64,000 bases of DNA from Novosphingobium sp. (GTDB taxonomy: Bacteria; Pseudomonadota; Alphaproteobacteria; Sphingomonadales; Sphingomonadaceae): positions 391,807-455,806 of the forward strand of contig JACKKX010000003.1 in NCBI GenBank assembly GCA_024236215.1. Direction: 5' to 3'. Position 1 is the stretch's first letter; the number at the start of each line of letters is the position of its first letter. Shown in pieces: positions 21,321-40,639 of the stretch. The notes below the pieces were generated by a model. The model saw nothing but the letters and a program-made list of their open reading frames with translations, ran no database searches and had not been told where the DNA came from. A program made the position numbers and the translations under genes.

Positions 21321-21361
21321 GTCCTTTTCCGCCTGACGGGGGAGCAGGCTGGCAAGGTAAA

Positions 21362-21383
21362 GCTGATCGCGGAGGCGATCAGC
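21362..21383. terminator. Hairpin between convergent ppa and pmbA
   Basis: A perfect 9-bp stem GCTGATCGC / GCGATCAGC with a four-base GGAG loop lies between two converging genes. There is no T tract on either side, so it is at most a weak or Rho-assisted terminator working in both directions. Confidence 0.4.
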
Positions 21384-21404
21384 GCATCCGGCAAGCGCCT
21401 CTCC

Positions 21405-33895: not shown

Positions 33896-34468
33896 GTGGT
33901 CAAGCTCAACAAGATCTATACCCGCACCGGTGACGATGGCACCACCGGACTGGTCGACGGGACGCGCCGGACCAAGCACGATGCGCGGATGGAAGCAATC
34001 GGCGCGGTGGACGAGGCGAACAGTACACTGGGACTGGCGTCCGCGGCGTTGGGAGACCTTGAACGCCACTTGAGCGCCGTTCGGAGAATCCAGAACGACC
34101 TATTCGATCTCGGCGCCGATCTGGCCACGCCGGGCAGCGATTTCACGCCCTCGCCGATGGTGCTGCGGATCGTTCCGGAGCAGGCTGTCTGGCTCGAACA
34201 GCAGATCGACGCGCTCAATTCCGCGCTTTCCCCCCTCACCAGCTTCATCCTTCCCGGCGGCAGCGAGGCGGCTGCCCGCGTCCATCTCGCCCGGGCAGCG
34301 GTGCGCCGCGCCGAGCGCGCGATCACCGCCCTTGCCGCGGCCGAGCCGGTCAATCCCGCCGCATTGGCCTATGCCAACCGCCTGTCGGACTTTCTCTTCG
34401 TCCTTGCCCGCGCGATCAACGCCGCCGGCCCAGGCGATGTGCTGTGGGTGCCGGGGCAAAACCGCTAG
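33896..34468 (+). CDS. Cob(I)alamin adenosyltransferase, PduO type
   Basis: 190 residues. Attaches the adenosyl group from ATP to cob(I)alamin. The N-terminal IYTRTGDDGTTGLVDG ATP-binding segment, EAIGAVDEANSTLGLA and the C-terminal signature RRAERAITALAAAEPVNPAALAYANRLSDFLFVLAR match the PduO/MMAB family, not the CobA type. The GTG start at 33896 lies one base after the HIG1 stop, so translation is probably coupled. No B12-dependent enzyme gene is visible in the window. Confidence 0.93.
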   Translation: MVKLNKIYTRTGDDGTTGLVDGTRRTKHDARMEAIGAVDEANSTLGLASAALGDLERHLSAVRRIQNDLFDLGADLATPGSDFTPSPMVLRIVPEQAVWLEQQIDALNSALSPLTSFILPGGSEAAARVHLARAAVRRAERAITALAAAEPVNPAALAYANRLSDFLFVLARAINAAGPGDVLWVPGQNR

Positions 34469-34528
34469 CCTTGGCAGAAAATCGCCGCTAACCAGCCGCC
34501 CTTGCTGCAAGTGCGAAGAGGTGAGGCG

Positions 34529-35503
34529 ATGCGGATTGTCGGTGTGATCGGAGCGGGACAGATGGGCACGGGGATCGCCCAGACCATCGCTCAGTTCGGG
34601 ATCAAGGTTCAGCTTTCCGATCTCGATCTGGCCCATGCCGAAGCCGGCAAGGCCAAGATCGACGCCGCATTGGTCAAGCTGGTGGGGCGCGGCAAGATCA
34701 CGCCCGACGATGCCCAGGCCGCGCTTTCGCGGATCACTGCAGTTGCCGACTATGCCCCGATGGCCGAGGCTGATCTGATCATCGAGGCGGCGACCGAGCG
34801 CGAGGAAATCAAACGCAAGATCTTCGAGGCAGCGGGCAAGGTGCTGCGCGCAGACGCGATCATGGCGTCGAACACCAGCTCGATCCCGATCACCCGCATG
34901 GCCACCTCCTCGCCCGATCCGGCGCGGTTCATCGGGCTGCATTTCTTCAATCCGGTCCCGGTGATGGGGCTGATCGAGGTTATTCCCGGCCTTGCCACCA
35001 GCGCCGAAACCGTCGCGCGCACCCGCGCCTTTGCCGAGAGCCTGAACAAGCAGGTGGTCCAGGCCGAGGACGAGCCGGGTTTCGTGGTCAACCGCATTCT
35101 CCTGCCGATGATCAACGAGGCGGTTTTCGTGCTGGGTCAGGGCACCGCCAACATCGCCGATATCGACAAGGGCTGCCGGCTGGGCCTGAACCATCCGATG
35201 GGGCCGCTGGAGCTGGCCGATTTCGTCGGTCTCGACACCTGCCTCGATATCGTCCGCGTCCTCTATAACACCACCGGCGACAGCAAGTACCGCCCCGCGC
35301 CGTTCGACATTTCTCCGGTCAGGACATTGAACAGCTGGGGCAGCTCGTCGATGCTGGTACGGCGGATCAAGCGGCCAACGCGGGTAATCCGTTGGTCCTC
35401 TTGCCGGGTTGAAAGCGCGCCCTCGCCGTCGCTGCACTCCGCGCGCATCGAGCGGAATTTGAGCATATCGAAAAACTGGTTGCCGCGCCCGACCCGGCGC
35501 TGA
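34529..35503 (+). CDS. 3-hydroxybutyryl-CoA dehydrogenase, 3'-truncated with an antisense-encoded tail
   Basis: The first 258 codons (34529-35302) encode a normal NAD-dependent 3-hydroxyacyl-CoA dehydrogenase. They include the dinucleotide motif VGVIGAGQMGTGIAQ, the catalytic His-Glu pair in GLHFFNPVPVMGLIEVI, and the dimer domain up to GLDTCLDIVRVLYNTTGDSKYRPAP. The family should continue for about 30 residues ending in a GRGFYDY-type motif. Here the frame runs on for 66 codons of sequence that is the reverse strand of a sugar transferase gene. The true 3' end is missing, so activity is doubtful. Confidence 0.85.
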   Translation: MRIVGVIGAGQMGTGIAQTIAQFGIKVQLSDLDLAHAEAGKAKIDAALVKLVGRGKITPDDAQAALSRITAVADYAPMAEADLIIEAATEREEIKRKIFEAAGKVLRADAIMASNTSSIPITRMATSSPDPARFIGLHFFNPVPVMGLIEVIPGLATSAETVARTRAFAESLNKQVVQAEDEPGFVVNRILLPMINEAVFVLGQGTANIADIDKGCRLGLNHPMGPLELADFVGLDTCLDIVRVLYNTTGDSKYRPAPFDISPVRTLNSWGSSSMLVRRIKRPTRVIRWSSCRVESAPSPSLHSARIERNLSISKNWLPRPTRR

Positions 35504-36465
35504 ACGAACAGCACCGGGCTGCCATCCTCGAACAGGATCGCCAGCGCGACGAGGAGCATCAGCGGGGCCAGAACCACCAGCGCGCCGAGCGCCACCGCAA
35601 GATCGAACAGCCGCTTGAGCACGCGGTCACGCAGATCGAGCGGGCCGACCGAAACTCGCAGCCAGCCGTGCCCGCCCCAGATTCCCGCACCGTGCGCCTC
35701 AAGTTCGGCGACGGCATCGTCGATCACTTCACCCGAGATGTTGGCGCCTTTGAGGATCATCGCCCAGTCGCGCCGCCGCTCGGGGACGCAGCTGACGATC
35801 ACACGGTCGATCGAGCACAACAGCTGGCCGATCCGGTTAAGCGCCGCCGGATCATCGAGCGCGGGTCTCAGCCCGTATTCGGCGGCGGAAATCCGCATCA
35901 CTCCATCCTGTTCCACCATGGGGCCGCCATCTTCGATCAGCAGCTCGTTGACCACGGTTTCGCCGCAGCGCCAGCGCACCAGGCTGCGCATCTGGGCGCG
36001 TACCCACACCACCCCGATCAGCGCGGCGATCAGACCAAGGGTATAGATCACGCGCGAGGTATCCTGGCTCGATTTCGAATAGAAAGAGATGAACAGCACC
36101 GTGGCCGCCGAAAGCGCCAGCGCGCTGAGCGCCCGGCGAACGCCGTGCTGGGCGGTGCGCAGCGCGCCGATCGAGTAGGCGCCATTGTAGAGCCCCACGG
36201 TCAGGAACAGCGGCAGCACCAGTTGCGCGAGCTCCAGCCCCTGAGAAAGCCCCGCGCGCCCCAGGTAGAGATAACCGGAGGCGCAATATCCGGCGAAAAG
36301 TGCCGCGATATCGCCAAGGATCAGTGCCAGGTAGCATTGCAGCCGCCGCCGCTCGAGCGGGCGCGCCTCGGGCAGGTCCGTGTTTTCGCCCGGCGCCACG
36401 CCGTCCCGGTGCGGGCGGGGCGTCTCCCGCCTTTCGCGCGCTGCGACCTGGTTTGCGACCTGCAT
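35263..36465 (-). CDS. Polyprenyl-phosphate sugar-1-phosphate transferase, 3'-truncated
   Basis: 400 codons, of which about 387 (36465 to 35305) belong to the family. Several N-terminal hydrophobic helices (about 45-170) are followed by a variable cytoplasmic region (about 170-265). The catalytic bacterial sugar-transferase domain begins RDRVLKRLFDLAVALGALVVLAPLML and continues through VLFVQRRVGRGNQFFDMLKFRSM to RTSIDELPQLFNVLTGEMS. The expected IVGPRP motif and roughly the last 60 residues are absent. Family members start exopolysaccharide or O-antigen repeat synthesis; this copy is probably inactive. Downstream of holA on the same strand. Confidence 0.85.
   Translation of the reverse strand: MQVANQVAARERRETPRPHRDGVAPGENTDLPEARPLERRRLQCYLALILGDIAALFAGYCASGYLYLGRAGLSQGLELAQLVLPLFLTVGLYNGAYSIGALRTAQHGVRRALSALALSAATVLFISFYSKSSQDTSRVIYTLGLIAALIGVVWVRAQMRSLVRWRCGETVVNELLIEDGGPMVEQDGVMRISAAEYGLRPALDDPAALNRIGQLLCSIDRVIVSCVPERRRDWAMILKGANISGEVIDDAVAELEAHGAGIWGGHGWLRVSVGPLDLRDRVLKRLFDLAVALGALVVLAPLMLLVALAILFEDGSPVLFVQRRVGRGNQFFDMLKFRSMRAECSDGEGALSTRQEDQRITRVGRLIRRTSIDELPQLFNVLTGEMSNGAGRYLLSPVVL
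35302..35306. other. Junction joining two 3'-truncated convergent genes
   Basis: Similarity to 3-hydroxybutyryl-CoA dehydrogenase stops after the proline codon ending at 35302. Similarity to the polyprenyl sugar transferase on the other strand stops at the serine codon 35305-35307. Both genes therefore break within about five bases of each other. This is either a deletion scar or an assembly join. No repeat, IS end or site duplication flanks it. Confidence 0.75.
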
Positions 36466-36570: not shown

Positions 36571-37599
36571 TCAGTCGCGCTTGGCGGCTCTGGTTATCTC
36601 GGCAAGTTCCTGAGACAACAGCAATTCGGCGCCCTGATTGTTGGCCAGTAGCTTGCGATGCAGGTCCAGCAGCCGCTCGGTCAGCCGGGTCAGCTTTCTG
36701 CCGCGCCAGCGCGAAAGCTGCGCGGCGAGATCGCGCTCATCCTTCCAGAACACCCGCCGGGCGGCGATTTCTGCCTTGAGCAGGGCTTGCACGTCGCCGC
36801 GCGGTCCAAGCTTGCCCGCAAGGTCGGTCAGCTGTGCGGCGCGGCGCTCGAAGGCCAGCAGCAGGCCCACGGGGTTCATCCCCAGCTCGCGCATCCGGCG
36901 CAGTTCGCCGGGCAGCTTGGCAGTCTGTCCGCCCAGCACGGCGCTGACCAGCGGGGCAAAGCCGTCGTCCTCGGTGCGCGCGCCGACCGCTTCGAGCGCC
37001 GCGAGATCGGCCTCGCGCGGGGCTGCCGGGCTGGCATCGAGATAGAGCGCAAGCTTGTCGATCTCCGAGCGGGCGATGCGGGTATCGAGTGCGGCGGCGC
37101 GCGCGATCCTTTCGGCCAGATCGCCCGACAGCCTGAGGCCCGCCGGGCCCGCCATCTGCCGCACCGCTTCGGTCACCGAGCGCAGGTCGGGCGGATAGAA
37201 CATCGCAACCAGCGCGTCGCCCCGGTTGGCGAGCAGCTTGGCGGTGCGCGACTTGTCGCTGGCTCCGCTCGCCACCACCAGCACCGGGCAGCCCTCGGTC
37301 GGATCGGCCAGCAGGTTCTCGATCGCGTCGTGCGCCTCGTCGCCGCTGGCGCGGATCCAGATGTGGCGGGTGCCGCCAAACAGCGAGGTCGATCGGGCCT
37401 CGTCGCTCAGGCGCACCGGATCGCGGCGCAGATCCGATCCGGCCAGCTCGATCCGTTCGCCCGGTTCGGGCAGCAGCGCGGCAAGATGCTCGGCCGCGTC
37501 CTGCGCCCCGGCTTCATCGGGCCCGCACAAGAAGAATACCCGCGCTTCGCGCGCCGCCCGGGCGGCCTGCCCCCTGAAATCCTTCTGGGTTGCCTTCAC
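36571..37599 (-). CDS. holA: DNA polymerase III subunit delta
   Basis: 342 residues, matching the usual length. Clamp-loader subunit that opens the beta ring. Low overall conservation is typical; recognisable parts are the N-terminal VFFLCGPDEAGAQDAAEHLAAL segment, LLVVASG-like strand VLVVASGASDK, and the C-terminal helical collar with LRRMRELGMNPVGLLLAFERRAAQLTDLAG. Its start overlaps the lptE stop (37596-37599). The leuS-lptE-holA order is a conserved proteobacterial cluster, which supports the call. About 105 bases separate it from the truncated sugar transferase. Confidence 0.93.
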   Translation of the reverse strand: MKATQKDFRGQAARAAREARVFFLCGPDEAGAQDAAEHLAALLPEPGERIELAGSDLRRDPVRLSDEARSTSLFGGTRHIWIRASGDEAHDAIENLLADPTEGCPVLVVASGASDKSRTAKLLANRGDALVAMFYPPDLRSVTEAVRQMAGPAGLRLSGDLAERIARAAALDTRIARSEIDKLALYLDASPAAPREADLAALEAVGARTEDDGFAPLVSAVLGGQTAKLPGELRRMRELGMNPVGLLLAFERRAAQLTDLAGKLGPRGDVQALLKAEIAARRVFWKDERDLAAQLSRWRGRKLTRLTERLLDLHRKLLANNQGAELLLSQELAEITRAAKRD

Positions 37600-38093
37600 G
37601 GCGCCGATTGGTTGCGCAAATGAAGCGAGATGCGGGTGACGATCCGGTCGGCCACCTGCTTCGAGAGGTTTTCCAGCGCGGTGTTTTCGGCCGCGATGGT
37701 GGCATATTCGGAAGATACGACGTCAATCCCGGCATCGGACCCGGCGGTGGCATCGAGCACGATCTCGCCGCTGGCCAGATCGACCAGCTGATAGCGCGCG
37801 CGCAGCGTGCGCCGCTCGCGTGCGATGGTATCGTCGGACAGCAGACCCAGTCCCTCGAGCCGGTCGTCCAGCCGGATGTCGAGCCGGTAGCGCGCGGTGC
37901 CGCTGGCACCCGCCGCGCCCAGCCGGTCGGTCAGCGCGTTGCGCACCAGCCATCCGGCCTTGCCCTCGATCGGCGCGACCTCGATCCCCGACAGCCCCTG
38001 GGCGACCGCCCCGCTGGCCCCGCCGGCATACATCGGCTGCAATCCGCAGGCGGAGAGCATCACTGCAAACGCAAGAACCAGTAGGCGCATCAT
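37596..38093 (-). CDS. lptE: LPS-assembly lipoprotein
   Basis: 165 residues. A lipoprotein signal ends in the lipobox LSAC (Cys about residue 16), so the mature protein is anchored in the outer membrane, where LptE plugs the LptD barrel. The mature part has GLQPMYAGG directly after the Cys and a later [37 protein letters not shown] segment typical of alphaproteobacterial LptE. Both ends overlap their neighbours by four bases (leuS upstream, holA downstream), implying tight coupling. It needs Lnt for full acylation and works with LptB in the same pathway. Confidence 0.92.
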
Positions 38094-40639
38094 GACGGCT
38101 TCATAACACGACCGGGTATGATGTTAAGCAGTCGATCCGGCACGTAGATGATTCTCTGCGGCTCGACATTACCGACGTGCAAAGTGACTTTCGAGCTCGC
38201 CATTGCAATCGCGAGGTTTGCTTCTTGCGTTTGCCCTTTCGGCACGGTGATCGTGTCACGAACCTTGCCCAGCACCTGGATCGCGATGGTCACTTCGTCC
38301 TCGACTAGCAACGCGGGATCGACGCTCGGCCAGGCTGCGTCGGAGATCAATCCGTCGCCAAGGCCGGACCAGGCCTCTTCGGCCAGATGCGGCATCATCG
38401 GCGCGACCAGCAGCAGCAGGGCCCGGATCGCGGCCGAACGGCTGGCCGAAGGGGCGGCCTTTTCCACCGCGCTGGCCAGTTCATAGATCCGCGCGACCGC
38501 CTTGTTGAAGCCCAGCCCTTCGATATCCTCGGCCACCGCGGCAACGGCCTGGTCGCGCTTGCGATCCAGCGCCTTGTCCTCGCCGCTGGCCGCCGGATCG
38601 TATTGCCCGAACAGTCGCCACAAGCGCTGCACGAAGCGTGCGCAGCCCTCGATCCCCGCCTCCGACCAGGGCAGGTCACGCTCGGGCGGGCTGTCTGAGA
38701 GCATGAACCAGCGCACCGCGTCGGCACCGTACTGGGCAATGATGTCGTCGGGATCGACGACATTCTTCTTGCTCTTCGACATCTTGATGACCCGGCCGAC
38801 TTCGACCGGGTTGCCATCGGATATCAATACCGCCCCGTCGCCGCGCTTCTCGATCTCGGCCGGGCCGAAATAGACCGGCGCCCCGTTGACGGGATCGATC
38901 CGCGAATAGGTCTCGTGCGTCACCATGCCTTGCGTGAACAGGCTGGCGAAGGGCTCCTTCACGTCGATCAGGCCAATGTGGTTGAGCGCGCGGGTCCAGA
39001 AGCGGGCATAGAGCAGGTGGAGGATCGCGTGCTCGATCCCGCCGATGTACTGCTCGACCGGAAGCCACCTGGCGATCACTTCGGGATCGAACGGGCGGTC
39101 GGCCGGCTGGCTGGCAAAGCGCAGGAAATACCAACTCGAATCCGCAAAGGTATCGAGCGTGTCGGTCTCGCGTTCGGCTGGCTTTCCGCAACTGGGGCAG
39201 ACAACGTGCTTCCAGGTGGGATGGCGCAGCAGCGGATTGCCGGGGGTCTTGAAATCGACGTCCTCGGGCAGCACTACCGGCAGCTGATCCCTGGGCACCG
39301 GCACCACCCCGCAGCTATCGCAGTGGATGAACGGGATCGGCGTGCCCCAGTAGCGCTGGCGGCTCACCCCCCAGTCGCGCAGCCGCCAGACGGTGGTCCC
39401 ACGGCCCCACTGGCCCTGCTCGGCGCGGGCGATCACCTCGGCCTTGGCGGCCTCGACATCCATGCCGTCAAGGAAGCGCGAGTTCACCAGGGCGCCGGGA
39501 CCGGTATAGGCCTCATCACCCTCGAACACGGGTGCGCTGGTCTCACCGTCTGCTACCACCCGCGTAACCGGCAAGGCATATTTGCGTGCGAAATCGAGGT
39601 CGCGCTGGTCGTGCGCCGGGCAGCCGAACACCGCGCCGGTGCCATAGTCCATCAGCACGAAATTGGCGATGTAGAGCGGCAGCGCGATGCCATCGTCGAA
39701 CGGGTGCTTCAGCCGGATTCCGGTGTCGTGCCCGAGCTTTTCCTGGGTCTCGATCTCGGCCGCGGTGGTGCCGCCCTTGCGGCATTCCTCGATGAACGCG
39801 GCAACCGCCGGATCGCCCGCCGCCAGCCGCTGCGCGATCGGGTGATCGGCGGCGATAGCGACGAAGCTGGCGCCGAAGATGGTATCGGGCCGGGTGGTGA
39901 AAACCTCGACTTCGGTGCTGCGGTCTGCGCTCCAGAACCGGATCTGAAGCCCCTGCGACTTGCCGATCCAGTTTTCCTGCATCAGCTTGACCTTGTCGGG
40001 CCAGTTCTTCAGCTCGCCCAATCCGCCCAGCAGATCCTCGGCGAAATGGGTGATCTTGAGGAACCACTGGCTGAGCTTGCGTTTTTCGACCAGCGCGCCG
40101 CTGCGCCAGCCGCGCCCGTCGATCACCTGCTCGTTGGCCAGCACGGTCATGTCGACCGGATCCCAGTTGACCGCCGATTCCTTGCGGTAGACCAGCCCCG
40201 CCTCGTACATGGCAAGGAACAGCGCCTGTTCGTGGCCGTAGTATTCCGGCTCGCAAGTGGCCAGCTCTCGGCTCCAGTCGAGCGCGAAGCCGAGGCGTTT
40301 GAGCTGGGCCTTCATGTTGGCGATGTTGTCACGGGTCCAGCCGCCGGGGTGGACCCCCTTTTCCATCGCGGCGTTTTCCGCCGGCATGCCGAAGGCGTCC
40401 CAGCCCATCGGGTGGAGCACCTCGAAGCCCTTCATTCGCTTGTAGCGGGCCAGCACGTCGCCCATGGTATAGTTGCGGACGTGGCCGATGTGGATGCGGC
40501 CCGAGGGATAGGGAAACATCTCAAGCACGTAGGAGCGCGGGCGCGGCGAGGCATCGTCGGCGCGGAAGGTTTGCCGCTCATCCCAGGCGGCTTGCCAGCG
40601 CGGATCGGCGCTGGACGGATCGAAGCGTTCACTCGTCAT
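38090..40639 (-). CDS. leuS: Leucyl-tRNA synthetase
   Basis: 849 residues. Class I synthetase with the HIGH motif in [21 protein letters not shown], the CP1 editing domain (about 220-420), a zinc-like pair of CxxC ([10 protein letters not shown] and [11 protein letters not shown]), and KMSKS in [17 protein letters not shown]. The last 65 codons or so (38090-38285) are unlike the rest: GC falls to about 54 % and the C-terminal domain reads [25 protein letters not shown], recognisable but divergent. The frame is intact. It overlaps lptE by four bases. Confidence 0.95.

Follow-up and report, generated by a model that had tools for sequence, protein, structure and literature searches.

Convergent dehydrogenase and sugar transferase genes truncated at a shared junction in Novosphingobium: probable loss of an exopolysaccharide cluster at a recurrent breakpoint

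The 3-hydroxybutyryl-CoA dehydrogenase gene (DH) and a sugar transferase gene (ST) are convergent in the Novosphingobium sp. genome studied here (G000), and both have lost their 3' ends at a single junction. The junction lies in the window, the whole 64,000-nucleotide stretch of contig C3 that was analysed. The preferred reading, with a probability of roughly 0.6, is that it records an old, fixed deletion of an exopolysaccharide cluster and of both 3' ends, and that the ST end is a recurrent breakpoint in the genus. On this reading, a second DH copy would supply the enzyme, the ST stump would be a working, probably non-catalytic protein, and the DH stump would be kept partly by gene conversion. 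A gene that breaks off partway through its catalytic domain is usually classed as a pseudogene. The ST stump, which is cut in this way, is seemingly selected and has arisen repeatedly, ending at the same codon in 14 genomes. Two questions thereby become testable: what role a phosphoglycosyl transferase has once its last ~90 residues are missing, and why separate deletions begin at one point. The DH pair adds the case of a truncated gene that apparently donates sequence to its full-length duplicate.

Similarity to DH stops at 35302, which is also where the match to a second, full-length copy in the genome (96% identical, window positions 34464-35302) comes to an end. Homology to ST ends at 35304-35305, a position ambiguous by 1-2 nt. 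The DH reading frame (34529-35503) consists of 258 native codons, to 35302, and 66 codons antisense to ST, while the ST frame (36465-35263) consists of 387 native codons ending ...DELPQLFNVLTGEMS and 13 codons antisense to DH (Table 1). The first-pass annotation had described this geometry, with both similarities ending at one point near 35303 and each frame reading into the antisense of the other, and is confirmed on both counts. Its estimate of the lost 3' ends holds for DH (~31 residues relative to 289-aa intact copies, against a claimed ~30) and is too low for ST, which lacks ~90 residues, not ~60, relative to a full-length 477-aa relative (L042). The NAD-binding domain PF02737 is matched at positions 2-179 of 180 in the DH stump.

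Table 1. Features of the window at and around the DH|ST junction.
Feature	Position	Strand	Evidence or remark
Cob(I)yrinic acid a,c-diamide adenosyltransferase (PduO type), native upstream neighbour of DH	33896..34468	+	PF01923; TIGR00636 above cut-off
Duplicated segment, left edge at adenosyltransferase stop codon	34464..35302	+	second copy G000:C3:233169-234007, opposite strand, 96.1% over 839 bp
3-Hydroxybutyryl-CoA dehydrogenase (DH) stump	34529..35503	+	PF02737 complete, PF00725 cut at 76 of 97
Junction DH|ST	35302..35305		exact breakpoint ambiguous by 1-2 nt each side
Sugar transferase (ST; large monotopic phosphoglycosyl transferase) stump	35263..36465	-	PF02397 cut at 103 of 179
holA, native upstream neighbour of ST	36571..37599	-	TIGR01128 above cut-off
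leuS, conserved flank used in species tree	38090..40639	-	TIGR00396 above cut-off

A junction-spanning query gives crossing matches in at least five of 195 genomes of the genus (G000, G171, G160, G103, and G004) and, in a family-wide set of 397 genomes (96 genera), in G000 and G160 only among the matches listed. Related strains therefore have homologues with the same short ends, the result that the first-pass annotation had named beforehand as one that would count against it. The ST C-terminus common to the five genomes reads ...G[ED]MS-xGAGRYLLSPVVL-stop, and because the same two breakpoints and the same tail occur in all five, chance is no explanation for the junction. A separate metagenome assembly (L030, JAKOWQ010000399.1) has the same junction and is ~93% identical to the window over ~10 kb, and contig C75 of G171 has the same junction as L030. 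In G103 the junction is internal to a contig and is flanked by adenosyltransferase and holA, its native neighbours.

The convergent arrangement of the window recurs, with 15.4-40.9 kb separating DH and ST, in 24 genomes in which both genes are among the matches listed and share one contig (G005, G047, G051, G053, G054, G058, G065, G069, G076, G077, G082, G083, G084, G085, G091, G096, G097, G113, G115, G119, G126, G128, G170, and G175); distances and orientation were read off match coordinates. Elsewhere the two genes are farther apart (~183 kb in G021), on separate contigs, or otherwise oriented. Polysaccharide genes follow ST in all four genomes annotated: G008 has Wzy-, Wza-, and Wzc-type genes there, G126 has one of Wza type, and G127 and G150 have Wzc-type genes. 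The labels of these genes, of gmd (GDP-mannose dehydratase), and of rfbA (nucleotidyl transferase) are Pfam-based, and the short gene names are the customary ones. Because DH and ST are convergent 15-41 kb apart in relatives and polysaccharide genes follow ST, the evidence supports deletion of an exopolysaccharide locus, which was one of the first-pass proposals, as the simplest account of the junction. This deletion would have removed the cluster between DH and ST together with the 3' ends of both. Plain deletion does not explain the DH breakpoint shared by two lineages.

These two lineages are A (G000, G171) and B (G103, G160, G004). A clade uniting them is rejected on rpoC, rpoB, leuS, and holA from 24 genomes (AU p 7.2e-35) and also on the ST tree (AU p 2.3e-40), where the cut ST genes of G126 and G195 join that of A (support 85, not starred) and the full-length ST of G024 joins that of B (support 100). 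The truncated state requires at least six changes on a 35-row ST tree, from which 11 distant full-length rows, G149, and G208 were left out. Two ST clades, {G009, G209, G173, G182} and {G126, G195, G000, G171}, hold only cut genes, so truncation in each may be a single event whose partner changed later.

A single origin of the DH|ST junction, followed by spread between lineages through homologous recombination of a small deletion-carrying fragment, is a possible alternative that is favoured well below the deletion reading. It would fit breakpoints that agree within 1-2 nt and spacing that is identical in A and B despite their separation on the trees. The gmd|ST junction is likewise common, with the same spacing, to G021 and G009, although these are not sisters: G021 groups with the full-length G005, and G009 with G182, G209, and G173. 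However, the ST type stays specific to each lineage through the last codon (TCG in A, AGC in B), and spread would then need a crossover within a few nucleotides of the junction, and the DH side near the junction has no patch of A-B similarity.

In 14 of 195 genomes, ST breaks off directly behind its conserved G[DEQ]M[SA] codons, and across these genomes it is joined there to eight different sequences. A match to ST at E <= 1e-40 was obtained in 169 of the 195; the best match was inspected in each, as were second matches in 37 genomes, and the cut ST of G009 and G182 is a second or tied match. Matches in the 14 cut genomes stop at reference residues 387-404, and on inspection all break after G[DEQ]M[SA]. 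T, the middle base of the next codon in 48 full-length ST genes, is gone in 12 of the 14 cut genes, and fixed positions further on agree in 2 to 6 of the 14. The partner is DH antisense in the five genomes of lineages A and B, gmd antisense in G021 and G009, and nucleotidyl transferase antisense in G209, with the same joint in G182. ST is joined to the start of Wza in G126, to two points in or before Wzc in G150 and G127, and to other sequences in G195 and G173, that of G195 without a Pfam match. Eight further breaks in one 3-nt window have a probability of ~4e-22 if breaks are uniform and independent, an independence that is not assured.

Breaks elsewhere in ST are few: near residue 350 in G136, close to a contig end, and at residue 379 in G109. 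ST of G191:C65 (L129) has lost about residues 276-388 internally and in frame, and the deletion lies between two Val-Gly-Pro motifs. At the end of G136:C128 (L229 3240-3318), ST runs into a short non-ST sequence before the contig ends, possibly an insertion element. Draft contigs also end within ~25 nt of the recurrent breakpoint in G131 (L231 1-3, L232 1319-1324) and G109 (L230 1-20). Such ends might point to a mixture of alleles in the population sampled, or to chance. In G109 the contig end comes after the break at residue 379, and in G125 a frameshift lies near the cut site; all of these may be chance. No inserted element was seen at the cut site inside a contig among the matches listed, and no motif shared on the partner side of the joints was found by eye.

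Exchange of C-termini among full-length ST genes was rejected, as the identities of N- and C-terminal parts correlate at 0.91 (1128 pairs, 48 proteins). A prophage or plasmid origin of the cut ST was likewise rejected, with no relative among viral contigs. Phage records matching ST number 38, all below 60% identity (10 of the 38 among the matches listed). Of 15 plasmid records, 14 run to residue 473-477 and one to 448, and none ends at the cut point.

On the deletion reading, recurrent deletions would start at one preferred point in ST. A more far-reaching and doubtful proposal is that the genus has a site-directed DNA-breaking or recombining activity, acting at the GxM[SA] codons of ST and at particular points in DH and gmd, which would make nucleotide-exact joints independently in different lineages; the half-catalytic transferase would then be a new selected protein form that evolved repeatedly. 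It is unlikely that selection, not mechanism, fixes the breakpoint, in the sense that only stumps ending just after GxM[SA] are stable and useful and hence survive. The low dN/dS of the stumps is consistent with such selection, as is a codon-level position that stays constant though the codons differ (TCG, AGC, TCC, GCA, GCT). However, the tails after the break range from ~6 to >100 residues, so the exact protein end is not fixed, and selection acting on where a protein ends should leave a window wider than 1-3 nt.

The ST stump groups by sequence with the large monotopic phosphoglycosyl transferases (WbaP, WcaJ, EpsZ; PF02397, TIGR03025), of which it keeps the helix bundle, the DUF/CoA_binding_3-type domain, the start of the catalytic domain, and the Asp-Glu dyad (PMC10942596, PMC12802240, PMC10519829), but it does not span the full domain. 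PF02397 is matched at 1-103 of 179 in the stump and at 1-178 in the G000 paralogue. D373 and E374 of the dyad are invariant in a 28-sequence alignment, and the full-length relative aligns to DELPQ of WbaP. Unlike these transferases, the stump lacks the last ~90 residues, and nothing homologous follows residue 387. Simulation ties Arg145 and Lys179 of PglC to undecaprenyl-phosphate binding (PMC10519829), and the end points of the PglC match place their equivalents, as expected positions, in the lost stretch. The stump is therefore probably not a full transferase.

The predicted structure of ST consists of helices and an alpha/beta domain at about residues 31-250 (block pLDDT 63-92), and the catalytic part is mostly at pLDDT <50 in the stump and in a full-length control alike. 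The N-terminal PF13727 match of the stump reaches 20 bits, below the cut-off of 25, and a Foldseek search with the predicted structure gave no match at E <= 0.001. The stump falls below the curated cut-off of all ten NCBIfam models matched; these cut-offs do not separate it from the full-length relative used as a control, which is also below them (for TIGR03025, 186.7 bits in the stump and 293.6 in the control against 295.55).

A search for an intact ST elsewhere in G000, suggested in the first-pass annotation, failed: the genome holds only a 39% paralogue of the lost part and no close second copy of the stump. A 90-aa query of the lost C-terminus was run on 19 genomes, ten of them cut (all but G009, G209, G173, and G182); its matches in these ten were all paralogues at 34-39% identity, and supply of the C-terminus in trans was rejected on this result. 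G009 and G182 also have ST matches that reach residue 477.

The ST stump may be a working membrane protein with a helix bundle, a DUF-type domain, and half a catalytic domain carrying the Asp-Glu dyad. Large transferases form dimers, and the DUF of WbaP is responsive to nucleotides (PMC10942596, PMC12802240); by analogy, the stump would most likely be a regulator or partner of the remaining full-length transferase at C2:668.6 kb. Undecaprenyl phosphate, meanwhile, would not be sequestered by a pathway that has lost its later genes.

Selection on the native part of ST was estimated by pairwise Nei-Gojobori dN/dS with an in-house script. Pairs of stumps that share the DH|ST junction give 0.049 (G000-G171; 58 synonymous and 9 nonsynonymous changes), 0.082 (G160-G004), and 0.26 (G103-G160), and full-length pairs give 0.039, 0.129, 0.158, and 0.24. 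Cut pairs with different partners give 0.082 (G126-G195), 0.065 (G209-G173), and 0.094 (G182-G173), and because the partners differ, part of this divergence may predate truncation. Values for distant pairs are higher: 0.266 (G000-G126), 0.333 (G000-G132), and 0.489 (G000-G160). From these comparisons, selection seems to maintain the stump roughly as strongly as it does the complete enzyme. The first-pass verdict that the product is probably non-functional is not supported for ST, with dN/dS of 0.05-0.26 among pairs sharing a junction.

That both stumps are pseudogenes not yet decayed, with low dN/dS produced by antisense overlap, gene conversion, and slow decay, is quite improbable. Conserved C-terminal parts of both domains are gone, DH has been duplicated and converted, and the junction has short antisense overlaps, all of which would suit such remnants. 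However, the ST frame is open in 14 of 14 cut genomes, and G000 has no close second copy of the ST stump. G209 and G182, which share another junction, differ at dS 1.3 with a dN/dS of 0.13, and the last 104 ST codons of G000 and G171 differ by 17 synonymous changes and 1 nonsynonymous change. The weakest alternative, a wrong join of two contigs near 35303, was raised in the first-pass annotation and would suit the run of both frames into antisense, but it is rejected with near certainty as an assembly error, since independent assemblies (JAKOWQ010000399.1 and three further genomes, among them G103 with its junction within a contig and between native neighbours) carry the identical junction.

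A search for an intact DH copy was successful. A full-length second DH lies in G000 at C3:233076-233945, on the opposite strand and ~192 kb from the stump, and its PF00725 domain is complete (1-97) compared with 1-76 of 97 in the stump. This copy presumably supplies the enzyme, and loss of the native 3' end would thereby be tolerated. It sits between IS3-family genes, one at 240.9 bits (above the cut-off of 160) and the other partial, at 140 of 160 bits. The full-length second DH of G103 is downstream of IS1595-type genes (112.8 and 36.3 bits, cut-off 75), and in G004 the 5' part of a second copy follows an IS1595-like fragment (46.7 bits, below the cut-off of 75). Transposase genes next to the copy are a feature that an IS-associated mobile DH, as a composite transposon or an IS1595 passenger, would show. 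By eye, the G103 copy (L071 7132-12865, G103:C23) lies between the IS1595-type genes and a run of TraE/TraK/TraB-like genes, and may sit on a plasmid or integrative element. A second full-length DH was not found in G171 (a draft, 89% complete) or in G160 (where the contig starts inside DH), and the best identity among 109 plasmid records of DH is 69.7%. In G000 and G103 the copied segment begins ~65 nt upstream of the DH start, at or near the stop codon of the adenosyltransferase gene. In G004 similarity can be detected from 42 nt before the start, and a similar GCTAGCC sequence lies further up in the second copy.

DH copies within one genome are 95.9% (G000), 88.1% (G103), and 98.6% (G004, 286 bp) identical, while the stumps of G000 and G103 are 80.0% identical. 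The last 110 nt before the junction hold 22 of the 32 differences between the G000 copies (P 3e-12). From -774 to -110, both copies agree against G171 at 21 sites; in the last 110 nt, the stump and G171 agree against the full copy at 21 sites. The G000 pair therefore carries a gene-conversion tract whose edge, ~110 nt upstream of the junction, does not reach the non-homologous flank. The stumps of G000 and G171 differ at 27 of 774 nt, with one difference in the unconverted 110 nt. Because the G000 stump is near that of G171 and the full-length copy is divergent beside the junction, the stump is the likely donor, and conversion likely ran from stump to full-length copy. No conversion-tract edge was found in the G103 pair.

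Concerted evolution of duplicate genes by gene conversion is a general process. The G000 pair resembles it in being near-identical upstream with a sharp loss of identity beside the non-homologous flank, and differs in that one partner is 3'-truncated and apparently the donor. The DH stump is conserved, yet it exchanges sequence with the full-length copy; its dN/dS of 0.054 for G000-G171 (23 synonymous, 4 nonsynonymous) is hard to read because gene conversion confounds such values. The stump may be kept partly because conversion copies its sequence into the full-length gene. The two G000 copies (window 34464-35302 and C3:233169-234007) are inverted repeats ~192 kb apart on one contig, and recombination between them would invert the segment and swap the 3' ends.

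Among the papers listed in literature searches, no title or abstract reports the DH|ST junction or the ST truncation, which does not prove absence. The nearest precedents seen are galE1/galE2 and Rhs, and neither, in the accounts cited here, involves a recurrent cut inside a catalytic domain together with a conserved stump. Truncation in galE1/galE2 of Neisseria meningitidis is attributed to illegitimate recombination at capture of the capsule island (PMC5349592). There, as here, a flanking metabolic gene has a full-length and a truncated copy and the duplicates permit inversion of the interval (PMC5349592). Truncation here, in contrast, accompanies loss, and the partner ST is also cut. C-terminal displacement in Rhs similarly joins a constant gene core at one point to 3' sequences that differ by lineage; unlike ST ends, Rhs tips are exchangeable cassettes, and displaced tips can stay downstream (PMC2935791). 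The new 3' sequences of ST, where identified, are pieces of unrelated genes, and none of the ten cut genomes tested retains the old C-terminus.

Three minor observations concern the window itself. Its right end (64000) is the end of contig C3 (455806). A small gene at 37596-38093, between leuS and holA, has no NCBIfam match and sits where lptE usually lies. A 54-bp stretch at 21337-21390 recurs inverted at ~252.7 kb of G000:C3 (L006 17650-17703) with 94% identity.
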